From the NCBI GenBank assembly GCA_902801565.1, contig CADCIX010000009.1, positions 1-64,000 of the forward strand: a stretch of 64,000 bases of DNA, in the 5' to 3' direction. Within the stretch, counting starts at the first letter, position 1, and each line of letters starts with the position of its first letter. The stretch is from an uncultured Veillonellaceae bacterium. Its GTDB lineage: Bacteria; Bacillota; Negativicutes; Selenomonadales; Selenomonadaceae. The translations under genes and the position numbers were made by a program. Below, in pieces: positions 10,338 through 27,075 of the stretch. The notes beneath the pieces were generated by a model. That model was not told the origin of the DNA. It saw only the letters and a program-made list of their open reading frames with translations, and ran no database searches.

Positions 10338-12761
10338 TTATTGCAACACCGGCCCATCCTTCCCATCATCAAAAGTAGCCGTACATCGCGGATAATTGGA
10401 GCACCCCCAAAACGCCCCATTCCTCCCATTGATTCTCCGAAGATTCCCCTCCCGACATTTCGGACATAGATATTTCTTCGCCGTCCCGCCGCCGGTATCC
10501 TTCCAATGTTCCATCGGACGCGCAGAATATTTTGGCTTGTCCCCCCCATCAAAGGATTTCCAAAGGGGCTTCCGGCTCGCCTCATACTCCGCGATCTCCT
10601 CCTCCGTGGGATAAGGAGACCCCAGCACATCAAAAACATCCGGCGGAGGCGCCCCGCGATAGTCATTGGCCGCATAGGATACCGTCCTGGAAGCCGAAGG
10701 CCTCGGCGCCCTTGCAGAGGCAGACACAGCGGCAGGGCCGGCCGCCCTTTTCCCTGCCGAAGCCAGATCCGGCGCACCGTCCCTGTCATCGCAGCTCATG
10801 CGGCAGCGGGGATAATTGGAGCAGCCCCAGAAATCCCCATTCCTGCCATGCCGCTTCACCAGCACCCCATTCCCGCACCTCGGGCAGGGATGCTCCCCCT
10901 GCACCTCCATCTTCACACCAAAGGCCTTGCCGCAAAGCTCCTTCGTGAACTCGATCTGCCGCTTCAGGAAATCCTCCAGGGAACCCTCCCCTTCCGACAT
11001 GGAATGGAGCCGGTCCTCCCATATGGCCGTGGAATCCGGATAGGTCATCTCATCCGGCAGTGCATCCACAAGAAGATAGGCGCTGGGCTGCGGTATGAGA
11101 TACTTCTTCTTGCCCTGCTGCTTGAGGAACTTGCGCTTGATGAGATCGTCAATGATGGTCGCCCGTGTAGCCTCCGTACCGATGCCATAGACATCCTTGA
11201 GCTGCTTCTTCGCCTCCGGATTCTTCACGTACTTGTGGATCTCCTTCATCCCCGCCAGAAGCGTGGCAGGAGTAAAGCGCACCGGCGGCTTCGTCACCCG
11301 CTGCTGCAGTTCCCCCTTCTCATAGGTCACAGGGTCCTTCTTCTTCATGAGGGGAAGGGATGATTCCTCCTCCTCGTCCTCCTTATCCTTGTCCTCTTCC
11401 TTTTTCTTAGATGAGAGATACATGACCTTCCATCCAAGCTCCTGCTCCGTCCTGCCGCTGGCCGTGAACAGCTCCTCCTTGTAGGAAATCTCGATCTTCG
11501 TCTGGTCATAGAGATGCAGCGGGTAGAACTGGGCAATATAGCCTCGTGCGATGAGATGGTAAAGATTCCTTTCCGGCTCGGACAGGGTTTCCGGCTTTGC
11601 CTTCACCGTCGTCGGAATGATGGCATGATGAGCAGAAATCTTCTTGTCGTTCCATGCCCGGCTCTTGAGAGAACCATCCGCCCCCTGCGCCCACTTAGAA
11701 AGCTCCCCCTCCTCCATGGCAGCAAGGTTTCCAAGGATTGCCCCTGACTCCCCAAACTGGTTCACGGGAAGGTACTCGCAATCGGAACGGGGATAGGTCG
11801 TGAGCTTCTTCTCATAAAGCTTCTGGGCAGTGTCCAGGACGAGCTGCGGGTCGTAGCCGAACCGCTTGCCCGCCAATACCTGCAGGGAAGACAGGGAAAA
11901 GGGCAGCGGCGGCGGCTCCTTCTTCCTCGTCTTCTGATAAAGGGAAAGAATGCCATCCCTTGGCTCCTGCCCAAAATACTCCAATTTCTCCTCTGCGATC
12001 TTCCTGTCCAGCAGGCGGTTCTCGCTGTCCAGTCCCGCCTGGTCCTCCCGCGGCTTCCATTGCGCCGTGAAATTCCCGTTCTCATGGGAGAATTCCGCCT
12101 TGATGGTATAGTAATCCACGGGCTTGAAATTCTCGATCTCCCGCTCACGGCGCACCACGAGAGCCAGCGTCGGCGTCTTCACGCGGCCGATGGGCAGAAC
12201 GATGCGCTCATGCCCCGCCCGCCGCGCCGCCAGGGTATAGGCGCGGGAGAGGTTCATGCCGATGAGCCAGTCCGCCCGGGCACGGGCCAGCGCCGACTGC
12301 TTCAGGTTGTAGAACTCCTCGTTCTCCCGAAGATTCGCATTTGCCTTCTTAATGCTCTGCTCATCCAGGGCATTGAGCAGGATGCGCTTCACAGGCTTCT
12401 TGTTTCCGAGATAGTCCAGCACCTCATCCACGAGAAGCTGCCCCTCCCGGTCCGGGTCCCCCGCATGAACGATCTCATCCGCCCTGGCGATGAGCCCCTT
12501 GAGCACAGCAAATTGCTTCTCGCAGTCCTTTGCCACGAGAAGCTTCCACTCCCCCGGTATGATGGGCAGATCCTCCGCCCGCCAGAGCTTGTATTTCGCA
12601 TCGTACTCATCCGGCTCCGCCTGACGCAGGATATGCCCGAAGAGCCACGTCACGATGCCATCCCCTGTCACCAGATAGCCATCCTTCCTCTGGATGGGAC
12701 CCGCAAGACAGCTGGCAAGCTCCCTGCCCATACTCGGTTTCTCGGCAATGTATAAACGCAA
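10338..12761 (-). CDS. topB: DNA topoisomerase III
   Basis: Type IA topoisomerase of 807 residues that relaxes or decatenates DNA through a transient tyrosine link. The TOPRIM domain starts the protein (LYIAEKPSMG, HAGDPDREGQLL), the catalytic tyrosine is in LTTYPRSDCEYLP, and the IGTEATRATIIDDL motif follows. Two C4 zinc-finger repeats end it (CPRCGNGVL...CSNYPRC and CPKCREGNL...CSNYPRC), separated by a proline/alanine-rich linker; a highly charged K/E/D insert lies near residue 450. The start is a TTG at 12761 with GAGGT about nine bases upstream. Confidence 0.95.
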   Translation of the reverse strand: MRLYIAEKPSMGRELASCLAGPIQRKDGYLVTGDGIVTWLFGHILRQAEPDEYDAKYKLWRAEDLPIIPGEWKLLVAKDCEKQFAVLKGLIARADEIVHAGDPDREGQLLVDEVLDYLGNKKPVKRILLNALDEQSIKKANANLRENEEFYNLKQSALARARADWLIGMNLSRAYTLAARRAGHERIVLPIGRVKTPTLALVVRREREIENFKPVDYYTIKAEFSHENGNFTAQWKPREDQAGLDSENRLLDRKIAEEKLEYFGQEPRDGILSLYQKTRKKEPPPLPFSLSSLQVLAGKRFGYDPQLVLDTAQKLYEKKLTTYPRSDCEYLPVNQFGESGAILGNLAAMEEGELSKWAQGADGSLKSRAWNDKKISAHHAIIPTTVKAKPETLSEPERNLYHLIARGYIAQFYPLHLYDQTKIEISYKEELFTASGRTEQELGWKVMYLSSKKKEEDKDKEDEEEESSLPLMKKKDPVTYEKGELQQRVTKPPVRFTPATLLAGMKEIHKYVKNPEAKKQLKDVYGIGTEATRATIIDDLIKRKFLKQQGKKKYLIPQPSAYLLVDALPDEMTYPDSTAIWEDRLHSMSEGEGSLEDFLKRQIEFTKELCGKAFGVKMEVQGEHPCPRCGNGVLVKRHGRNGDFWGCSNYPRCRMSCDDRDGAPDLASAGKRAAGPAAVSASARAPRPSASRTVSYAANDYRGAPPPDVFDVLGSPYPTEEEIAEYEASRKPLWKSFDGGDKPKYSARPMEHWKDTGGGTAKKYLCPKCREGNLRRINGRNGAFWGCSNYPRCTATFDDGKDGPVLQ

Positions 12762-18949: not shown

Positions 18950-20221
18950 TCAGCCACGGCTCTCCCACTGCAGGGAAAGCACGTGCCAGCCTCCTTCTTC
19001 CGAGGTCTCCATGCGGACCCTGTATTTTTCCACAAAATCATCCAGAAATGCCCTGCTGCTTTCATCCAGATGCTCCAGTGCCCCCCGCCGTTCCTTGAAT
19101 TCCATCCTGCACTGCTGCCCATCATGATGCAGGCCAAGGCAAATCTCCTGCCCGCCCTCCTTTTGCAGCAGAAAGGCCGCCTCCAACAGATTCGACAGCA
19201 GAAGGGCAAGATCGCTTTCCTTCACGTCAATACGGCAGGGCAGATGGACCTCATTCTGGAAGGGAATGCCAAGTTCCCTCGCCTGCCGGAGATAGATGAC
19301 AATGGTGGCATCGATCAGGGGCATGGCGGACACGGGATTCTCCGACAGTGTCTGCAGTTTCTCTTCCTGTGTCCTGATATGTTCCAGAGCCATGTCCTCC
19401 GCACCGTTTTTCAGAAGCGTGTAGATCATCCGGTAACTGTGGCGCAGGTCATGGCGGAGCACAGAGATATGCTCGGCGGCTTCCTTCATGAAGGAAGCTC
19501 TCCGCTTGAGGGCATCCCTCTGCTGCCTCATGAGCCTGTTGGCGTGTTCCTTCTGTATCCGGTCCGTGGCCTCCCGCGAGGAAAAACTCATGGTGGAGTA
19601 GACGAGGAAAAAGAACAGGGGCAAGGCAAAACGGGCCAGACGATCCTTCCATCCCGGAAGGAAGGTGATATGCACGATGGGAATGAGAGCGCCGAGGAAA
19701 ATGGCAATGGGCAATGCCGCGACGTACCAGCGGAGGGGGGAGTCGTCCAGCAAGCGGTCCGTTGGCAGGAGATGCTCGAACATCTTCTTCTCCCAGGGAA
19801 ACAGCAGGAGAAACAGAATGAGATAGAACACTGTGTGATAGTGGATCACATCGTTGGTGATGGTTCCAAACAGGGCCACAAGAATCATGCCGGAAAGGGA
19901 ATGGAGCGTGAAAGACCATAGCGCCTGCATGCCGAAAACGAAGACATGCTGGGCATTCTGATTGCGGATGACCATGACGGACAGCAATACATAGGGAATC
20001 CATCCAAAGAAGAACATGAACTTGAAACTCGTCAGATGTATCCCGGAACGGGAAAGATAGAGGATGTAAAGCAGGAGCCCCGACATGCTCCAGAGGAGCA
20101 GGGATTCCCAGAGGCTGCGGATTTCCTCGGGTGTCATCTTCCTCCGGAAGGGCAGGAATCTCAGATAGGCTCCCGATATCTGTATGAGTGTGGCCAGAAC
20201 CGCCAGGGAAAATACCATCAT
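18950..20221 (-). CDS. GHKL-type sensor protein, degenerate kinase (pseudokinase candidate)
   Basis: Membrane protein of 423 residues with about six hydrophobic segments in the first 210 residues, a helical linker, then a GHKL histidine-kinase-like region. The H-box is intact (ISVLRHDLRHSY) but the N-box reads SNLLEAAF where the paralogue upstream has SNLLENAV, and no G-box (GxGxG) is present: the corresponding stretch is RRGALEHLDESSRAF. It is therefore unlikely to bind ATP normally. The start ATG overlaps the stop of the upstream kinase (ATGA), so the two are co-translated. It may heterodimerise with, or restrain, the active kinase. No response regulator is adjacent. Confidence 0.8.
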   Translation of the reverse strand: MMVFSLAVLATLIQISGAYLRFLPFRRKMTPEEIRSLWESLLLWSMSGLLLYILYLSRSGIHLTSFKFMFFFGWIPYVLLSVMVIRNQNAQHVFVFGMQALWSFTLHSLSGMILVALFGTITNDVIHYHTVFYLILFLLLFPWEKKMFEHLLPTDRLLDDSPLRWYVAALPIAIFLGALIPIVHITFLPGWKDRLARFALPLFFFLVYSTMSFSSREATDRIQKEHANRLMRQQRDALKRRASFMKEAAEHISVLRHDLRHSYRMIYTLLKNGAEDMALEHIRTQEEKLQTLSENPVSAMPLIDATIVIYLRQARELGIPFQNEVHLPCRIDVKESDLALLLSNLLEAAFLLQKEGGQEICLGLHHDGQQCRMEFKERRGALEHLDESSRAFLDDFVEKYRVRMETSEEGGWHVLSLQWESRG

Positions 20222-21546
20222 GAGCTTTCATCCTTCCAATACATCAACAGCCGCACCCATCCGGATTTTTGGGAAAAGATTGCATATCCGTTGTATTTCC
20301 TGAGAAACGCCTTGAGGGAAATCATCCCAATGCCATGCCCCGTGCGCGAGGAATGGGGCACACCGTCTTCCCCGAGCCGGAGCGGCGCATCGTAGCGATT
20401 GGAAATGGAGAGGGCGCACTGCTTCCCGTCATGCTGGATGACGAGCTCGATTCCCCTGGCATTTGGAGGCTGTTCCTTGCTTGCCCGCACGGCATTTTCC
20501 AGCAGATTCGACAGGAGAACCGCAACATCATTCTCATCGGCGGAAAGGCGCTCTGGCAGGTTCACCTTCTGCCGGACGCGGATTCCCATTTTCTCTGCAT
20601 GACGCAGGTAGACGGAAAGGGCCGCATTGACAAGCGGAAGATCCGAGAAGGGACGGATGACCGTGGCATCCAGGCGCTTCTCCTGTGTGCGGATATATTC
20701 CTTCGCCTCCGCAACCTTTCCTTCCTCTATAAGAGCATGAAGTTTCTGGTAGCTCTCCTTCAGGTCATGGCGGAGCGCAATCACCGTGTCCTGGCTTTCC
20801 TGCATGAACCGCTGGTATTCCTCAAGGGAGAACAATTGCTTTTCCAGGAGCTGCGTACTCCTTTCCAGCCGCTGCCCCGCATAGAAATGTTTGGCGGCAA
20901 TCAGCACATATCGATAGAAGAAGAAAAAGACAATGGGCATATACAGGCGGGAAAGCCGCTCTTCCCAGGTATGCCAAAGGATATCATCTGCCCACATGAT
21001 CCAATGAGCGGAGAGGATGGCAAGGGGAAGGACAGCGATATAGATGCCTACCGGCCTCTGATCAAAAAACCTGCCGGAGGGCAGCAAGTTCCGGAAGAGG
21101 CGCCGCTCCAAGGGAAGCAGCAATGCGAACCACAGGATGTAAAGCCAGGAATGGACAAGAATGACCGTGGACTCCCTGCTTTCCATCAGGAACAGGGCAA
21201 CAAGGATGCTGCTCCAGCTGTGCTGCATGAAGCTCCAGATCGCCGACATCCCGAACACGAAGACATGCTGGCAGACCTGGTGCCGCACCGCATGCATGAA
21301 GATGGCAAGATAGGGAATCCACCCAAGCATCAGGGCAATCTTGTAGGCAGCCACAACGACGCCCATCTGATAGAACATCCATCCATAAAGGCCGCTGCTG
21401 AAAAGACCCCAAAGGGCAAAGTGTTTCCACAGGCGACGAATCTCCGCCTTCTCCATCCGGTCACGAAAGGCAAGATAGCGAAGGTAGGCATCGGCAAGCT
21501 GCAAAAGCGTAACTGCCAGGACAAGGAAAAAAATAGTTCTGTCCAT
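20218..21546 (-). CDS. GHKL-type sensor histidine kinase (AgrC-like architecture)
   Basis: Sensor kinase of 442 residues. Multiple membrane segments occupy residues 1-215; the dimerisation helix carries the H-box VIALRHDLKESYQKL, followed by the N-box NDVAVLLSNLLENAV and the G-box SRTGHGIGMISLKAFLRKY. The layout matches AgrC/ComD/DUF-type peptide-sensing kinases, which usually act on LytTR response regulators; none is in the window. The ATG at 21546 follows GAGGT by five bases and is preferred over two upstream ATGs. The pair is divergent from a small-protein and C11-protease operon that it may control. Confidence 0.88.
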   Translation of the reverse strand: MDRTIFFLVLAVTLLQLADAYLRYLAFRDRMEKAEIRRLWKHFALWGLFSSGLYGWMFYQMGVVVAAYKIALMLGWIPYLAIFMHAVRHQVCQHVFVFGMSAIWSFMQHSWSSILVALFLMESRESTVILVHSWLYILWFALLLPLERRLFRNLLPSGRFFDQRPVGIYIAVLPLAILSAHWIMWADDILWHTWEERLSRLYMPIVFFFFYRYVLIAAKHFYAGQRLERSTQLLEKQLFSLEEYQRFMQESQDTVIALRHDLKESYQKLHALIEEGKVAEAKEYIRTQEKRLDATVIRPFSDLPLVNAALSVYLRHAEKMGIRVRQKVNLPERLSADENDVAVLLSNLLENAVRASKEQPPNARGIELVIQHDGKQCALSISNRYDAPLRLGEDGVPHSSRTGHGIGMISLKAFLRKYNGYAIFSQKSGWVRLLMYWKDESS

Positions 21547-21618
21547 GGTACACCTCATGATTTTCATTCTGTATATGAATATATATTATAACGCATAAGA
21601 ATCAAAACGTCCAGTAAT

Positions 21619-21650
21619 CGACCACTTTTTCGAAAAAACGACCACTTTTT
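21619..21650 (+). promoter_or_regulatory. Paired direct repeats, LytTR-type operator candidate
   Basis: CGACCACTTTTT occurs at 21619-21630 and again at 21639-21650, a 20-base period that places both copies on one DNA face. The second copy ends nine bases before a -35 box. AgrA/ComE-type regulators bind such spaced direct repeats just upstream of -35. Confidence 0.55.
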
Positions 21651-21659
21651 GATTTGCTA

Positions 21660-21688
21660 TTGAAATCTATTGCAAAATAAAGTATTCT
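21660..21688 (+). promoter_or_regulatory. Promoter of the small-protein operon
   Basis: TTGAAA at 21660-21665 and TATTCT at 21683-21688 with a 17-base spacer. The imperfect boxes are what an activator-dependent promoter would show. Confidence 0.6.
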
Positions 21689-21744: not shown

Positions 21745-21987
21745 ATGTCAAAGAAAAATGCTGTTTTGGGTGCTGTCCTTGGTTTCTTTGTAATTGGACT
21801 TTTCTATGCCAAGGGTCTCAATAAGCAGTCCGTGCTGATTGTCTTGGGGCTTTGCATCCTGTGCTCGCTTATCTCTATGGTTGGCGGCCCTGCTTCGATC
21901 ATCGTCAACTTCGTCGGAGGGTATCTCGGTTACAAATGGTGCACGGAGTACAATGCGAATCTGGAAGGAACAGCGGTTCAGATCTGA
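21745..21987 (+). CDS. Small two-helix membrane protein
   Basis: Unnamed protein of 80 residues with two or three glycine-rich hydrophobic segments (AVLGAVLGFFVIGLFYAKGL, then VLIVLGLCILCSLISMVGG and IIVNFVGGYLGYKW). The GxFYAKG pattern is vaguely like TM2-domain proteins. AAGGAGG lies nine bases before the ATG at 21745; the TTG at 21742 is too close to be a better choice. It is the first gene behind the direct-repeat promoter and stands 65 bases before a small exported protein. Confidence 0.75.
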   Translation: MSKKNAVLGAVLGFFVIGLFYAKGLNKQSVLIVLGLCILCSLISMVGGPASIIVNFVGGYLGYKWCTEYNANLEGTAVQI

Positions 21988-22052
21988 GGACAGGCTGCCG
22001 TTGTTTATGATAGTTTGAATGCCGCTTGGACGGCAGAAAGGGGTTATTTAAA

Positions 22053-22298
22053 ATGAAGAAGACCGTAAGTGCAGTATTGGCAGCCGCAATGATGATGGTA
22101 GGTGCGCAGGGAATCGTAGCCGCCGCTCCCGCAACGGTAGGCGTTGACAATTCCCAGCTGGTTCTCCTGGACGAATACTATGATGTGGGCGATGGCGATG
22201 TGGCGCTCGTAACCGATGACGGATATGTCGCTGTTGCAGACGAGTATGGCAATGCTGTTGTCATCGATCCGGACGGTGGCGTTTGGGTAACGGAGTAA
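22053..22298 (+). CDS. Small exported acidic protein
   Basis: Protein of 81 residues. A clear signal peptide (MKKTVSAVLAAAMMMVGAQG followed by IVAAAP) is followed by a short acidic domain with aromatic-Asp/Gly repeats (LLDEYYDVGDGDVALVTDDGY, then VAVADEYGNAVVIDPDGGVWV). After cleavage about 57 residues would reach the periplasm. I recognise no family. AAAGGGG is nine bases before the ATG. It is followed by a strong terminator and then a C11-family lipoprotein, so it could be a substrate or signal for its neighbours; this is only positional. Confidence 0.75.
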   Translation: MKKTVSAVLAAAMMMVGAQGIVAAAPATVGVDNSQLVLLDEYYDVGDGDVALVTDDGYVAVADEYGNAVVIDPDGGVWVTE

Positions 22299-22318
22299 TC
22301 CTGATAAAAGGGTTTGCT

Positions 22319-22352
22319 GAAAAGCGCCCGCCTGCTTCGGGCGGGCGCTTTT
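22319..22352 (+). terminator. Terminator after the small exported protein
   Basis: AAAAGCGCCCGCC / GGCGGGCGCTTTT with a short TGCTTC-type loop and T tail. It ends 25 bases before the next start codon, so the C11 gene depends on read-through or on a promoter within the preceding gene. Confidence 0.85.
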
Positions 22353-22376
22353 CTTGTTTCTATAGGAGATATGGAC

Positions 22377-24395
22377 ATGCACAAGATCTTAAACGCTTGG
22401 ACAAGAACGTTAGGCCTCGTCGTGCTCCTTTTGGCAGTCATGCTCCTGGGGGGCTGTGACGATGAAGAAAACAACGCCAAACAGCAGAAATTCACCAATG
22501 CTTACAATGCGGAGGACACCTGGCTGGTCTATTGGTACGTCTGCGGTACGGATCTGGAAACCAGGTTTGGGGCGGCTACGACGGACATCAGCGAGCTGAT
22601 GGACGTGGAACTCCCCCCCAATGTGAAGGTTCTCATCCAGACAGGCGGCACTGCGGACTGGAAAAACTCCACCATGCCGAACAGGAAAATCGGGCGCTTT
22701 CTCTATGACAAGGACGGCCTGCACGAGCTGGAGCAGCTTCCGGATGCCGACATGGGTTCTCCCCGGACGCTCTCGGATTTCCTGCGGTACGGCAAGGATA
22801 ACTTCGAGGCGGATCACCGGGTTTTCGTCTTCTGGGACCATGGCGGCGGCAGTGCGGCCGGTGTCTGCGTTGACGAGCACACGAAAAACGCCCTGAGCCT
22901 GAATGACATCAGGAATGCCTTCACTTCAGTGCACACGGCATCCCCCGAACAGCCGCCCTTTGAGCTCATCGGTTTTGATGCCTGCCTCATGGCAACCTAT
23001 GACGTGGCCAACACCCTCCACGGGCTGGCCCGCTACATGACGGCTTCGGAGGAACTGGAGCCCGGAAACGGATGGTACTATACGGGATGGGTCGGCGCAC
23101 TGGCAAAAAATCCGGCCATGGGCGGCGCGGCCCTGGGACAGGCCATCTGCGACAGCTACATGAAGGGCTGCAAGGAGGAAGGCACCGAGGACTCGGCGAC
23201 CCTCTCCGTCATTGACCTCTCGAAGGTCCCGGCCCTGCGCACGGCATACGAGTCCTTTGGCGTGGAAGCCCTCCGCCATGCGGTGGACAACCCCAGGAGC
23301 TTCTTCTCCTCCTTCAGCCGTGAAGCCCAGCAGGCGGAAAACTATGGAGGCAATACCCGCGACCAGGGATATTCCAACATGGTGGATCTGGGGGATCTGG
23401 CCCACGAGGCAAGCGTCCTCCTTCCGGAAACCTCCCAGAATCTCATCCGTGCCATTGACGACGCCGTGATCTACAAGGTGCATGGCGTCTACCGGGATAG
23501 GGGAAGCGGCATCTCCGGCTTCTATTCCTACGATGGAAGCGCGGAAAGCCTCAACAGTTACGCTGCCCAGGAAGCGGCTCCCCTGTCGCTGAAATGCCTG
23601 TTCCACTACCTCATCCACGGACAGCTTCCCCAGGAAGCAAAAACACTCCTGGAGGGCGGCACTCCCGGAGGAACGGCAACAACCCTGGCACCGGCAGCGC
23701 CTGCCCAAATGCAGAAGATCTTCAACGTGGCATCCCTCGAGGATTGGCCCGTGAATATCGACAAGGACGGCAATGCCTTCATCACGCTGTCGCAGGAACA
23801 GATGGACATGCTCTCCGGCATCCATTGCCAGCTGCTCATCATGAGCGTCGAGCGGGATATCATCCTTCACCTCGGTACCGATGGCGATATTGACGCGGAT
23901 TGGGACAAGGGCGTATTCAAGGACAATTTCCGCAATGTCTGGCCCATGCTGGACGGCCATCCCGTGTTCATCGAGATTACGGCAGAGGAAGACGACTACA
24001 ACCTCTACTCCGTTCCCATCAAGCTCAACGGCGAGGAGTGCAACCTGCAGGTATCCTATTCCTTCAAGGATGAGAAATATTACATCCTGGGTGCACGCAA
24101 GGGAATCGACAGCCAGGGCATGGGCGACCGCAACCTCATCAAGCTCAAGAAGGGCGACCAGATCACCACCATCCATTATGTCACGACGATTTCCGGCAAT
24201 GAGAGCGGGCTCACTGCGGTGGATGTCGAAACCTTCACCATCGGTGACCATCCGAAATTCGCGGACGAAAATCTGGGAGACAGCGAGTACGCTTACTTCT
24301 TTGAATTCGTGACGCCCACAGGTGAAACCGCCCTTTCAAAACTCGTGCAGTTCTCTGTGCGGAACGGGGACATCTTCACCTCGGTGGATATTTGA
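22377..24395 (+). CDS. Clostripain-family (C11) lipoprotein peptidase, copy 1
   Basis: Predicted lipoprotein of 672 residues: signal helix ending in the lipobox LLGGC, lipidated cysteine C27. The C11/caspase-like domain holds the catalytic histidine H155 (FVFWDHGGGSAAG) and cysteine C203 (ELIGFDACLMATYDVA); the helix STEELEPG follows the usual pattern. The C-terminal ~220 residues form a beta-rich domain (YNLYSVPIKLNGEECNLQVS). Clostripain-type enzymes cut after basic residues and usually self-process. The ATG at 22377 has GGAG eight bases upstream. A 674-residue paralogue follows one gene later. Confidence 0.9.
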   Translation: MHKILNAWTRTLGLVVLLLAVMLLGGCDDEENNAKQQKFTNAYNAEDTWLVYWYVCGTDLETRFGAATTDISELMDVELPPNVKVLIQTGGTADWKNSTMPNRKIGRFLYDKDGLHELEQLPDADMGSPRTLSDFLRYGKDNFEADHRVFVFWDHGGGSAAGVCVDEHTKNALSLNDIRNAFTSVHTASPEQPPFELIGFDACLMATYDVANTLHGLARYMTASEELEPGNGWYYTGWVGALAKNPAMGGAALGQAICDSYMKGCKEEGTEDSATLSVIDLSKVPALRTAYESFGVEALRHAVDNPRSFFSSFSREAQQAENYGGNTRDQGYSNMVDLGDLAHEASVLLPETSQNLIRAIDDAVIYKVHGVYRDRGSGISGFYSYDGSAESLNSYAAQEAAPLSLKCLFHYLIHGQLPQEAKTLLEGGTPGGTATTLAPAAPAQMQKIFNVASLEDWPVNIDKDGNAFITLSQEQMDMLSGIHCQLLIMSVERDIILHLGTDGDIDADWDKGVFKDNFRNVWPMLDGHPVFIEITAEEDDYNLYSVPIKLNGEECNLQVSYSFKDEKYYILGARKGIDSQGMGDRNLIKLKKGDQITTIHYVTTISGNESGLTAVDVETFTIGDHPKFADENLGDSEYAYFFEFVTPTGETALSKLVQFSVRNGDIFTSVDI

Positions 24396-24438
24396 TAATA
24401 CTACTTACTACTTGACTTAACAGGAGGCACAACATTAA

Positions 24439-24963
24439 ATGGAAGAAAAGCAAGAAGAAGGATTTTCCAAGCGGACGACACAGCTCATTGCATTGACAGC
24501 GCTTTTCCTCGCCATCTGCGCGACCTTTTCCTCTCTCAAGGCCGGGGCATTTGCAAGCAAGGGTATCCTTGCCCAGAACCAGGCCTCGGATGGCTGGGCC
24601 CATTACCAGGCAAAAAGCCTGAAACAAAACACCTACCAGGTCCAGCTCGATGAACTGGAGCTGAGGACGGAAACTGCAGATACAGAAAAATTCGCGACGC
24701 TGAAGAAAAAATACCAAGAGCGGATCGACCGCTACGAGGCCGAGCAAAAAGAGATCAGTGCAGAGGCCAAGGAAAAGGAAGCCCAGCGCGACCATTTCCT
24801 GGAGTTGAACCGAAGCTTTGCCGGCGCAGTGACGCTTCTGCAAATCGCAATTCTCCTGGTTTCCCTGGCCGCCCTGGTGAAACAGCGCCCCTTCTGGTAC
24901 ATCGGCATGGTCATAGGTGTCTTTGGCGTGTACCAATTCATTACCTCGCTGATGATGGTGTGA
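24439..24963 (+). CDS. DUF4337 membrane protein
   Basis: Protein of 174 residues matching the DUF4337 pattern: an N-terminal membrane helix (TQLIALTALFLAICATFSSL), the conserved ASDGWAHYQAKSLKQNTYQ segment, a long charged coiled coil, and one or two C-terminal membrane helices (AGAVTLLQIAILLVSLAALV, IGMVIGVFGVYQF). Function is unknown in the family. AGGAGG precedes the ATG. It sits exactly between two paralogous C11 lipoproteins in the same orientation, suggesting a shared envelope function or a duplicated unit. Confidence 0.85.
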   Translation: MEEKQEEGFSKRTTQLIALTALFLAICATFSSLKAGAFASKGILAQNQASDGWAHYQAKSLKQNTYQVQLDELELRTETADTEKFATLKKKYQERIDRYEAEQKEISAEAKEKEAQRDHFLELNRSFAGAVTLLQIAILLVSLAALVKQRPFWYIGMVIGVFGVYQFITSLMMV

Positions 24964-24982
24964 CAAAATTATTTGCAAGAGA

Positions 24983-25016
24983 AACGCCTGCCTGGAACTC
25001 CGGGCAGACGTTTTTC
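24983..25016 (+). terminator. Weak terminator after the DUF4337 gene
   Basis: AACGCCTGCC pairs imperfectly with GGGCAGACGTT, followed by TTTTCC. Confidence 0.5.
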
Positions 25017-25050
25017 CTTCAAGATTGCAATTTGCATAGGAGACAAACAC

Positions 25051-27075
25051 ATGAACAGGATTTTGAATACTTGGACAAGAACCCTGAGCCTGGCTGTGCT
25101 CCTTTTGGCCGTCGTGCTTTCGGGCAGCTGCAATCACGGGGAAGCCGCTCCGACCGACCTCAAGCAGCTGAATTTCTCCGATGACTCCATAAATGATGAC
25201 CGCTGGCTGATCTATTGGTACATCTGCGGCACGGATCTGGAAACCAGGTTCGGCTCGGCCACGGAGGATCTCGCCGAACTGATGGACGTGGACCTTCCTC
25301 CCAATGTGAAGGTCCTCATCCAGACGGGCGGCGCGGAAGAATGGCAGAACGACGTCGTGAAAAACAATGCCATCGGGCGTTACCTTTATGACGGGACGGG
25401 GCTCTACGAGCTGGAGCAGCTGAAAGATGGGGATATGGGCTCTCCCGACACCCTTGCAGATTTCCTGGAATACGGGGACGATAACTTCGACCCGGATTAC
25501 CGCGTCTTCATCTTTTGGGACCATGGCGGCGGCAGCGCAGGCGGTATCTGCTACGATGAGCGCACCGAGAATTCCCTGAGCCTGAATGATATCCGGGATG
25601 CCTTTACCGATATCTATGATGCTGCCCCGGAGGATCCCCCCTTTGAGCTCATCGGCTTCGATGCCTGCCTCATGGCAACCTATGATGTGGCCAACACCCT
25701 CCATGGCTTTGCCCGCTATATGACGGCATCGGAAGAAACCGTCCCAGGGAACGGCTTTGCCTACGACCTCTGGGTGGATGCCCTGGCAGAGGATCCCTCC
25801 ATGGACGGCGCGGAATTGGGAGAGGTCATCTGTGACACCTATATGGACGGCTGCAAGGATGAGGAAACCGACGACACGATTACCCTGTCCGTCATCGACC
25901 TCTCAAAGGTCCCTGCTCTTCGCAGGGCATATGAGGCCTACGGCGCGGAGGCGCTCCGTTGTGCGGCGAAAGACCCCAAGGGATTCTTCTCCGCCTTCGG
26001 CCGAAATGCCAAACGAGCAGAAAATTACGGCGGCAATACCCGTGACCAGGGATATTCCGACATGGTGGACCTGGGCGATCTGGCGCAGGAAACGCGCCGT
26101 CTCCTGCCGGGAACCTCACAGGATCTCATCCGTGCCGTCGATGATGCCGTGGTCTACAAAGTCCATGGCGATTACCGCAGGAATGGAAGCGGCATCTCCG
26201 GCTTCTACTCCTATGATAACGACGAGGACACCTATGAAGAATACGCAGACCAGGACGCAGCTCCCCTGCCGATGAAATGCCTGTACTATTACCTCATCTA
26301 TGGGGAACTTCCCCAGGAAGCAGACCAGTTCCTGACAGGCAATGCCGGGCAGGGATCGTCCTCCATCCTGCATCCGGTCCTTTCCCAGGCCCATAAGATG
26401 TTCACACTGTCCGATCTCGAGGATCTTCCTGTGGACATTGACGATAAAGGAAATTCCTTCATCACACTGTCAGAGGAACAGATGGACCTGCTTTCCGCTG
26501 TCCATTGCAATCTGATTGCCGTGGGCATCGAGGAGGATATCCTGCTTAATCTCGGCAGCGATGCCGATATTGACGGGGATTGGAATACCGGCGTATTCAA
26601 GGACAATTTCCGCGGTGTCTGGCCCATGCTGGACGGACATCCCGTGTACATCGAGATCACGGCGGAGGAAGACGACTACAATCTCTATTCCGTCCCCATC
26701 AAGCTCAACGGCGAGGAATGCAACCTGCAGGTATCCTATTCCTTTACCGACGAGAAGTACCATATCCTGGGGGCGCGCAAGAGAATCGAGGACAACGGCA
26801 TGGGCAGCCGCAAGCTCGTCAGGCTCAAGAAGGGCGACAAGATCACCACCATCCATTATGTCATGACGATTTCCGGTGATGACGATGAGTATACTCCGGT
26901 AGATGTAGATACCTTCACCATCGGCAGCCAACCGAAAATGGAAGACGAGGATCTTGGGGACGGCGACTACTTCTACTATTTCGAATTCATAAGCCCCACA
27001 GGCAACAGCGCCACTTCCAAACTCGTGGAGTTCACAGTGGAAAATGGTGACATCTTCACCTCGGTAGATGACTGA
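25051..27075 (+). CDS. Clostripain-family (C11) lipoprotein peptidase, copy 2
   Basis: Lipoprotein of 674 residues, paralogous to the protein at 22377-24395 over its whole length. It has a lipobox (VVLSGSC), catalytic H158 in FIFWDHGGGSAGG and C206 in ELIGFDACLMATYDVA, and the same C-terminal beta-rich domain. Both dyad residues are present, so both copies should be active. GGAG lies eight to nine bases before the ATG at 25051. The two copies differ most near residues 30-60 and in the region after NYGGNTRDQGYS, which may set different substrates. Confidence 0.9.
   Translation: MNRILNTWTRTLSLAVLLLAVVLSGSCNHGEAAPTDLKQLNFSDDSINDDRWLIYWYICGTDLETRFGSATEDLAELMDVDLPPNVKVLIQTGGAEEWQNDVVKNNAIGRYLYDGTGLYELEQLKDGDMGSPDTLADFLEYGDDNFDPDYRVFIFWDHGGGSAGGICYDERTENSLSLNDIRDAFTDIYDAAPEDPPFELIGFDACLMATYDVANTLHGFARYMTASEETVPGNGFAYDLWVDALAEDPSMDGAELGEVICDTYMDGCKDEETDDTITLSVIDLSKVPALRRAYEAYGAEALRCAAKDPKGFFSAFGRNAKRAENYGGNTRDQGYSDMVDLGDLAQETRRLLPGTSQDLIRAVDDAVVYKVHGDYRRNGSGISGFYSYDNDEDTYEEYADQDAAPLPMKCLYYYLIYGELPQEADQFLTGNAGQGSSSILHPVLSQAHKMFTLSDLEDLPVDIDDKGNSFITLSEEQMDLLSAVHCNLIAVGIEEDILLNLGSDADIDGDWNTGVFKDNFRGVWPMLDGHPVYIEITAEEDDYNLYSVPIKLNGEECNLQVSYSFTDEKYHILGARKRIEDNGMGSRKLVRLKKGDKITTIHYVMTISGDDDEYTPVDVDTFTIGSQPKMEDEDLGDGDYFYYFEFISPTGNSATSKLVEFTVENGDIFTSVDD

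Follow-up and report, generated by a model that had tools for sequence, protein, structure and literature searches.

A putative LytTR circuit linking a divided peptide-type kinase to C11 proteases and surface proteins in an uncultured Selenomonadaceae bacterium

Genes and features of the locus

The window, meaning the whole stretch of 64,000 nucleotides that was analysed, contained every gene named in the original prediction at its expected place, with the small genes, the C11 genes and the DUF4337 gene on the forward strand and the kinase genes, which overlap by 4 nt, on the reverse strand (Table 1). The description of two sensor kinases was upheld for kinase 2, which matched a kinase model, but not for kinase 1, which matched no Pfam family. 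NCBIfam supplied no name above its cut-off for the kinases, the small proteins or the DUF4337 protein. A tandem repeat and strong hairpins directly 5' of each C11 gene had been absent from the prediction; between the hairpin at 22319..22353 and the start of the first C11 gene, the space was too short for another promoter.

Table 1. Features of the locus, by position in the window
Feature	Position	Strand	Description
Kinase 1, 423 aa	18950..20221	-	AgrC-like membrane part; His box LRHDLRH kept; clade A
Kinase 2, 449 aa	20218..21567	-	HATPase_c_5 (1e-10); N-box SNLLENA; G box GHGIGM; clade B
Tandem direct repeat, CGACCACTTTTT-N8-CGACCACTTTTT	21619..21650	+	Period 20; predicted LytTR regulator site
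Promoter-like site	21660..21688	+	-35 TTGAAA, 17-nt spacer, -10 TATTCT
Small membrane protein, 80 aa	21745..21987	+	Relatives in other genomes
Exported acidic protein, 81 aa	22053..22298	+	Mature part without Lys/Arg
Terminator-like hairpin, 3' of exported protein gene and 5' of first C11 gene	22319..22353	+	Strong hairpin
C11 (clostripain-family) lipoprotein a	22377..24395	+	Pfam Peptidase_C11; His 156 (HGGG), DAC 202-204
DUF4337 membrane protein	24439..24963	+	Match 4e-43
Terminator-like hairpin 5' of second C11 gene	24988..25007	+	Strong hairpin
C11 lipoprotein b	25051..27075	+	Pfam Peptidase_C11; 68% identical to a

The two C11 lipoproteins were paralogous, as had been predicted. Both carried a lipobox-like Cys near residue 27, exceeded the cut-off of the Pfam model (8e-41 and 5e-40) and possessed the His and Cys of the dyad, those of the first protein being arranged as in clostripain. 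They did not belong to clostripain in the strict sense, since they scored 30 and 40 bits against the 550-bit threshold of TIGR02806. C11 enzymes cleave after Arg or Lys, and because the Asp-Ala-Cys motif and the His are canonical here, the same specificity would be expected.

The mature part of the exported protein in 13 homologues contained 188 Asp or Glu in 581 residues and no Lys or Arg at all, while a 14th homologue (L097) had a single Arg. This did not support the circuit that had been proposed for the locus, in which a C11 protease cuts the exported protein and a GHKL kinase senses the product; cleavage by C11 is unlikely because the mature part lacks Lys and Arg in 13 of 14 homologues. 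The C-terminus, VESGDILVDEDGDVWEVQ, was conserved, and two genomes (G149 and G154) carried the segment as two tandem copies; relatives in g17 had acidic, low-complexity tails. A C-terminal beta-meander was predicted, with a mean pLDDT of 61.5 for the model, and a fold search with this model returned no significant match (best E 0.27, to designed proteins).

Among the matches listed, kinase and C11 genes lay within 5 kb of each other in 16 of the 71 genomes that held both, representing nine genera (chance 0.46), and were apart in the other 55. The kinase and exported protein genes were within 5 kb in 11 of 18 genomes (chance 0.12). Separation in most genomes had been named beforehand as evidence against the proposed circuit, and this was half borne out, by the kinase and C11 genes. 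The proximity counts, and a conserved regulator-type site in the interval separating the kinases from the small genes, supported the view that the parts form a conserved module. Across 189 genomes, kinases were present in 117 and the exported protein in 21. Relatives of the small membrane protein adjoined C11 or the exported protein in five other genomes from three genera; its similarity to the TM2 protein of Clostridia loci was not significant. The membrane proteins of 245-248 aa in those Clostridia loci were not DUF4337 according to Pfam, and one of them matched the DUF4337 protein of the window weakly (28%, E 0.002). The 217-aa lipoprotein found 5' of the exported protein in Anaerovibrio was absent from the window; a DUF5105 protein near the LytTR regulator gene of contig C39 was a weak relative.

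Histidine and ATPase in neighbouring kinases

Kinase 1 had lost the second Asn of its N-box (SNLLEAA) and had no G box, such that the ATP-binding motifs were gone while the phospho-acceptor His was present; its structure model had a pLDDT of 83. Kinase 2 kept its His with the H+4 position changed (LRHDLKE), and gave no match when used as the query in a PDB sequence search. The window pair was therefore not a split histidine kinase in the strict sense, as kinase 1 combined a His with a degenerate ATPase and kinase 2 had both; the split is incomplete, and homodimers are possible because kinase 2 retains its His.

Relatives were further advanced. Of 34 complete neighbouring pairs, 25 had the His on one member only and the ATPase on the other only, a figure that is no family-wide rate because the loci were mostly picked for adjacent matches. 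In none of the 34 did one member combine His with ATPase while its partner had neither, and just one pair (L071) was complete in both. Three fell outside this simple scheme: L079 and L107, without a canonical His in either member, and L100, without a standard ATPase in either. Unpaired kinases situated away from contig ends were complete in 10 of 10 cases.

Phylogenetic analysis placed the kinases in two old paralogous clades, A and B. In Anaerovibrio and its kin, the His was carried by the member from clade A; in ten g13 loci, it was carried by the one from clade B. On the tree, CA-less members required five changes, at least four of them forced, and a single origin was rejected (p-AU = 8e-35). 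Half-loss has happened repeatedly, and with opposite polarity. Losses that complement and mirror each other in this way argue strongly that the two kinase proteins must work together; kinases 1 and 2 probably form one unit. It is fairly probable that an obligate two-subunit enzyme has arisen repeatedly in Selenomonadaceae from a duplicated sensor kinase of the peptide type, with opposite directions in different lineages. In the most reduced state, the His-only partner would be down to about 100 residues and a single membrane helix; the window pair would stand midway. If so, the sensor may need two membrane proteins to be engaged together, and perhaps two inputs. Nature has in effect performed this deletion experiment over and over, and the resulting range of partners, from complete to minimal, offers ready constructs for biochemistry.

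Tandem repeat and LytTR regulator

The 12-nt repeat between the kinases and the small genes was perfect. Exact tandem copies occurred at three other places in the source genome (none in a reversed control), and the exact pattern was confined to that genome among the 31 searched, i.e., its own and 30 relatives. When mismatches were allowed, 189 genomes yielded 35 tandem matches in 17 genomes, against three for the reversed pattern, and 16 of these 17 genomes had the LytTR regulator described below. The spacing of CACTTTT repeats was narrowly distributed: period 20 was seen 32 times, period 21 five times and period 33 once, with no instance of any other period from 12 to 35. TTG lay exactly 9 nt 3' of the site in 23 of 30 cases, as does the -35 box of the window 3' of the second repeat. 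This is a LytTR-type geometry, and the window has the layout of a VirR-type regulon, with two direct repeats directly upstream of the -35 box. At the tandem site on contig C39, the -35 box was missing from its usual position. An insertion-sequence end was considered as the origin of the repeat and rejected; the IstB gene at C3:87846 had no such repeat nearby, and plasmids had no match to one 42-nt copy.

Sites were also found 5' of surface-protein genes in the source genome, and 5' of repeat proteins; in relatives they preceded autotransporters and the C11 operon, and at three loci a LytTR gene of the C39 type. The source genome has two LytTR genes. That on contig C6 adjoins a LytS/BtsS-like gene. 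The other, on C39, is an orphan with Pfam LytTR and Response_reg domains; it scored far under the cut-off of the NCBIfam BtsR model. Its orthologue adjoins the kinase pair in A. lipolyticus and in most Anaerovibrio loci. Since the regulator is unlinked in the source genome, its partnership with the kinase pair is an inferred one. Conservation of the repeats, and their position 5' of the regulator gene at three loci, suggest that the C39 regulator binds them.

Proposed circuit and comparison with known systems

We consider it quite probable that the window contains a sensor together with its output operon, both belonging to a single LytTR two-component circuit. The kinase of this circuit would be divided between two paralogous membrane proteins, and the circuit would control C11 proteases and surface proteins. 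Kinase 2 would supply the ATPase and kinase 1 the phospho-acceptor His within a heterodimer. Phosphate would pass to the AgrA-like LytTR regulator, encoded on C39 here and beside the kinase pair in Anaerovibrio, which would bind the tandem ACCACTTT repeats (period 20) beside the -35 box. The operon that the regulator would then activate runs from the small membrane protein through the exported acidic protein, the first C11 protein and the DUF4337 protein to the second C11 protein; large surface proteins (autotransporters and repeat proteins) would be turned on with it. The hairpins 5' of each C11 gene may pass only a fraction of transcripts, so that more of the small exported protein than of the protease would be produced. 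Most likely, the C11 lipoproteins trim the co-regulated surface proteins or shed them, or else cleave foreign peptides; the acidic protein, being free of Lys and Arg, would survive next to them, and may be a partner, an inhibitor or a signal.

Several other readings were weighed. The exported protein might itself be an autoinducer of the kinase pair, in a positive feedback like that of AgrD or ComC that does not need C11. Its gene lies inside the operon predicted to be activated by the circuit and close to the kinases in the genomes counted above, and its C-terminus is conserved and sometimes duplicated; however, kinases are far more widespread than the exported protein, no exporter or processing enzyme was noticed among its neighbours, and signals of this class are not usually so acidic. 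This reading is unlikely. That the acidic protein, the C11 proteases and the membrane proteins make up a shield against cationic antimicrobial peptides sensed by the kinase, the acidic protein trapping the peptides and C11 cutting them after Arg or Lys, is unlikely: a Lys/Arg-free acidic protein made beside presumed Arg/Lys proteases, and the acidic tails of the g17 relatives, would suit it, but the same site 5' of autotransporters and repeat proteins better fits a surface programme. The loop initially proposed, with a kinase sensing a fragment released by C11, has the co-occurrence of the genes in its favour and is very improbable, given canonical C11 motifs and an exported protein almost devoid of Lys and Arg.

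It is quite unlikely that kinase 1 is a copy in decay, or a negative partner of the RetS kind, leaving a kinase 2 homodimer to signal alone. The His, N and G boxes retained by kinase 2 favour this, but its H+4 position is already altered, and in relatives the kinase-2-type protein lacks the His that the kinase-1-type protein has, the reverse being true of other lineages. Finally, the repeat might be a mobile-element end or be bound by the LytTR protein of C6 instead; three of the exact repeat sites lie near what we take to be nuclease- or transposase-like genes. Both are scarcely probable at all, as the IstB locus lacks the repeat, the distance from repeat to -35 box is constant and the repeat precedes the C39-type regulator gene in relatives. 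We retain the LytTR circuit with a divided kinase; its conserved repeat marks out a regulon that can be tested in this diderm family. Literature searches, in one library with few subscription journals, found no description under Anaerovibrio clostripain, Selenomonas LytTR two-component or Negativicutes LytTR with histidine kinase, and those on kinase subfunctionalization or heterodimers and on HPK10 did not find the system described.

FasA and VirR are both regulators of the LytTR type, and VirS is a single complete kinase. Other LytTR sites, including those of YehT/BtsR, consist of two repeats of 9-11 nt with 11-13 nt spacing (PMC4847170). The YehT oligonucleotide contains ACCGCTTA and ACCACTCA (PMC4847170), which resemble ACCACTTT here, while the period is 21 in YehT/BtsR sites and 20 here. 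In Clostridium perfringens, a VirR box is a pair of direct repeats separated by 7-8 nt and lying immediately 5' of the -35 box, and alpha-clostripain alone among the VirSR targets is conserved in every strain tested (PMC2838878). The window resembles VirSR in the repeat layout at the -35 box and in having a C11 protease as putative target (PMC2838878); it differs in repeat sequence, and VirSR has toxin genes as further targets. C11 looks like an output of the circuit rather than a sensor input, in the manner of alpha-clostripain under VirSR, which would tie C11 proteases to LytTR circuits in monoderm and diderm Firmicutes alike.

CheA3 and CheA4 of Rhodobacter sphaeroides similarly place phospho-acceptor and ATPase on separate proteins (PMC3591291), but these form a chemotaxis kinase with a P1 domain, whereas the peptide-type membrane kinases studied here show a series of intermediates. 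Heterodimeric bacterial sensor kinases have rarely been reported, as PMC12675982 states. The same paper describes FasBCA of Streptococcus pyogenes, where FasB and FasC formed a heterodimer in a two-hybrid test, one partner needing only its membrane part and His domain and the other only its His domain and ATPase, and where FasA binds a ComE-like site (PMC12675982). Like FasBCA (PMC12675982), our system has two neighbouring kinase-like membrane proteins and a response regulator as their putative partner, and the window contains two adjacent AgrC-type kinases, one with an intact His and a degenerate ATPase. In FasBCA both kinases are full length and the output is the small RNA FasX; here, by contrast, the proteins of relatives no longer contain the lost halves at all, and the putative outputs, in a family of diderms, are surface proteins and C11 proteases. 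FasB/FasC is an experimental precedent for a two-protein kinase.

Kinase pairs and their probable division of labour

Kinase profile matches occurred in 117 of the 189 genomes of the family. Sixty stretches were fetched, having two adjacent matches, a strong match, or an exported protein or C11 gene nearby, and together with the window these provided 88 kinase frames for scoring. Anaerovibrio lipolyticus had been fetched in duplicate (loci L034 and L092; 100% identity) and was counted through L092 only; L091 is a very near relative of that locus. There were 39 neighbouring kinase pairs, of which 34 were complete after the exclusion of four that ran off a contig and of one frame fragment (L098).

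The majority of pairs (25 of 34) were strictly complementary, one member having the phospho-acceptor His only and the other the ATP-binding N and G boxes only. In three pairs the loss was limited to one His (L080, L081, L099); two had both His but one ATPase (the window and L097); in one both members were complete (L071), and three lay outside any simple scheme (L079, L107, L100). The canonical His was missing from both members in L107 and L079, where it may be supplied by a third protein. Unpaired kinases were complete in 10 of 11 cases, the remaining one (L083) having its partner cut off at a contig end. Most His-only partners were approximately 290–305 aa long and ended after the His domain; the smallest, with a single membrane helix each, had 103 (L084), 107 (L088) and 100 aa (L089).

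In the window, kinase 2 matched HATPase_c_5 in a Pfam search, which matched no family to kinase 1. Alignment showed that kinase 1 retained LRHDLRH but had no G box left and, in its N box, lacked the second Asn; kinase 2 retained the His, and its H+4 residue differed from that of other phospho-acceptors. Judged by these motifs, the window pair is an intermediate.

A tree of 79 rows, built from the membrane part and His domain, resolved two paralogue clades (support 94/92 for A and 97/96 for B), and each pair read off the tree drew one member from each clade, L071 excepted. The His was carried by the clade A protein in Anaerovibrio, on contig C7 of genome G004 and in L078, L101 and L102; it was carried by the clade B protein in ten loci of one group of relatives (g13) and in genome G141. 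The condition 'His without ATPase domain' (24 rows) required five changes on the tree, at least four being forced by well supported branches, and a single origin was rejected (p-AU = 8e-35) for a group that was defined before the tree was built. Since repeated loss with swapped roles would otherwise be hard to explain, the two kinases probably work as one enzyme.

The tandem site and the LytTR regulator

Between the kinases and the small genes lies the tandem site CGACCACTTTTT-CGAAAAAA-CGACCACTTTTT, which ends 9 nt upstream of a -35-like TTGAAA, with a -10-like TATTCT 17 nt further on. With a gap of 6–13 allowed, the exact tandem occurred four times in this genome and the reversed exact tandem was absent from it. 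Exact or near copies preceded a gene for a repeat-rich exported protein on contig C43, its remnant on C3 and a gene on C4 for a protein similar to that of C43; others were found on C36 and on C39, the latter with no -35 at the usual distance. A lone half-site on C19 lay upstream of a gene that was autotransporter-like in sequence, with no Pfam match. Across the family, 35 matches to the pattern (≤3 mismatches) were found in 17 of 189 genomes, against three for the reversed pattern. TTG stood exactly 9 nt downstream in 23 of 30 distinct sites, every other offset from 0 to 29 having at most five. Among 61 loci (854,167 bases), direct repeats of CACTTTT had a period of 20 in 32 cases, 21 in five and 33 in one, and all other periods from 12 to 35 gave zero. 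In Anaerovibrio, the site was followed by genes for large, autotransporter-like proteins whose signal peptides are long (L176, L188, L203, L204, L209–L211).

This genome has two LytTR genes. The first, on C6, adjoins a LytS/BtsS-like gene; the second, on C39, encodes 242 aa with Response_reg and LytTR domains, and no kinase of the window-pair type adjoined it in the 15 kb inspected. Other HATPase_c_5 matches in this genome were a CitA/DcuS-like kinase on C7 with its own regulator (like the LytS/BtsS-like gene, named from sequence) and a short match on C31. The orthologue of the C39 regulator in A. lipolyticus (52% identical) directly adjoins a kinase pair; that locus also has the tandem site seen in the window, together with genes for a C11 protease and an exported acidic protein. 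Relatives of the regulator were present in 104 of 189 genomes, including 16 of the 17 with the tandem site (the exception being G185), and in three relatives' loci (L196, L205, L208) the site lay upstream of a regulator gene of this type. Near the C39 regulator, a DUF5105 lipoprotein was weakly related to the lipoprotein of 217 aa found in Anaerovibrio modules.

Coordinates of features in the window and in other analysed loci
Feature	Locus	Position	Strand
Kinase 1	window	18950-20221	-
Kinase 2	window	20218-21567	-
Tandem site, period 20	window	21619-21650	
Tandem site of contig C39	L010	1340-1371	
DUF5105 lipoprotein	L010	3906-4514	
Large autotransporter-like protein	L176	6527-8737	
Exported protein, two tandem C-terminal segments	L166	310-591	
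Exported protein, two tandem C-terminal segments	L167	4071-4349	
Exported and small membrane protein in one frame (G041)	L098	1478-1999	-
Ion-channel-like gene (identity from sequence only)	L108	~11,760-12,600	
Ion-channel-like gene (identity from sequence only)	L098	~1200-1330	

Putative target genes and their linkage

All five genes originally noted opposite the kinases (small membrane protein, exported acidic protein, two C11 proteins and a DUF4337 protein) proved genuine, as did the two kinases themselves. The two C11 proteins were 68% identical; both have a lipobox-like Cys, and in alignment with clostripain their catalytic His and Asp-Ala-Cys motif are conserved. The Arg/Lys specificity of C11 proteases would be expected of both.

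The exported acidic protein had relatives in 21 of 189 genomes, most of them ending in VESGDILVDEDGDVWEVQ or a near variant; this segment was duplicated in two genomes of group g7 and replaced by an acidic tail in g17. Past residue 25, Lys and Arg were absent from 581 residues of 13 homologues, compared with 7–8% in neighbouring lipoproteins of the window; a fourteenth homologue outside that alignment (L097) had one Arg. A small C-terminal beta-meander was predicted with moderate confidence. In G041 the exported and small membrane proteins shared one reading frame, with CAA in place of the stop codon of the exported protein; the frame may be a naturally occurring fusion or may lack a stop. An ion-channel-like gene was observed downstream of the exported protein in L108 and L098, standing in L108 between it and C11.

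The suggestion that kinases and C11 proteases belong together was borne out in part: among the matches listed (146 kinase matches in 91 genomes, 150 C11 matches in 112, both below the full totals), they were ≤5 kb apart in 16 of the 71 genomes having both (9 genera), against 0.46 by chance, and separate in 55. Also among the matches listed, kinase and exported protein were within 5 kb in 11 of 18 genomes (0.12 by chance), and C11 was within this distance of the exported protein in 6 of 17 (0.10 by chance); the chance figures assume a 2.5 Mb genome and ignore contig ends. The recurrent Anaerovibrio order was regulator, kinase pair, site, 217-aa lipoprotein and exported acidic protein; in L091, L092 and L095 a C11 gene came next. 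Kinase, regulator, 217-aa lipoprotein family, C11 and small membrane protein were grouped in g9 (L183–L185), as were regulator, kinase, DUF4337, C11 and small membrane protein in G140. In two Clostridia MAG loci, C11 lay opposite genes for a LytTR regulator and a GHKL kinase, and a TM2 protein and then a larger membrane protein came after it; Anaerovibrio sp. JC8 had C11 without kinases in the stretch examined.

Proposed mechanism and known systems

The sequences themselves show the gene content, the complementary loss of motifs and its reciprocal polarity, the conserved site with its geometry, and the linkage. Under the mechanism proposed, the two kinases would form a heterodimer through which phosphate flows, the C39 regulator would bind the tandem site, termination at hairpins would be partial, and C11 would act on surface proteins. 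Literature searches found no description of a physical, repeated and reciprocal division of kinases, nor of a C11/surface regulon in diderm Selenomonadaceae. PMC4847170 describes LytTR regulators as binding two repeats of 9–11 nt each with 11–13 nt between, and gives a YehT oligo containing ACCGCTTA and ACCACTCA. In Streptococcus pyogenes, where FasA is the regulator, the ATPase is required in FasB, and His 246 but not the ATPase in FasC; FasB and FasC interact mutually and neither with itself (PMC12675982). Split kinases are covered in PMC3591291 and PMC7656254. For VirR of Clostridium perfringens, PMC2838878 places the repeats 7–8 nt apart, upstream of the -35, and names alpha-clostripain as the sole target conserved in all tested strains. 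Because of the FasB/FasC, split-kinase and VirR precedents, this kind of system is already known.
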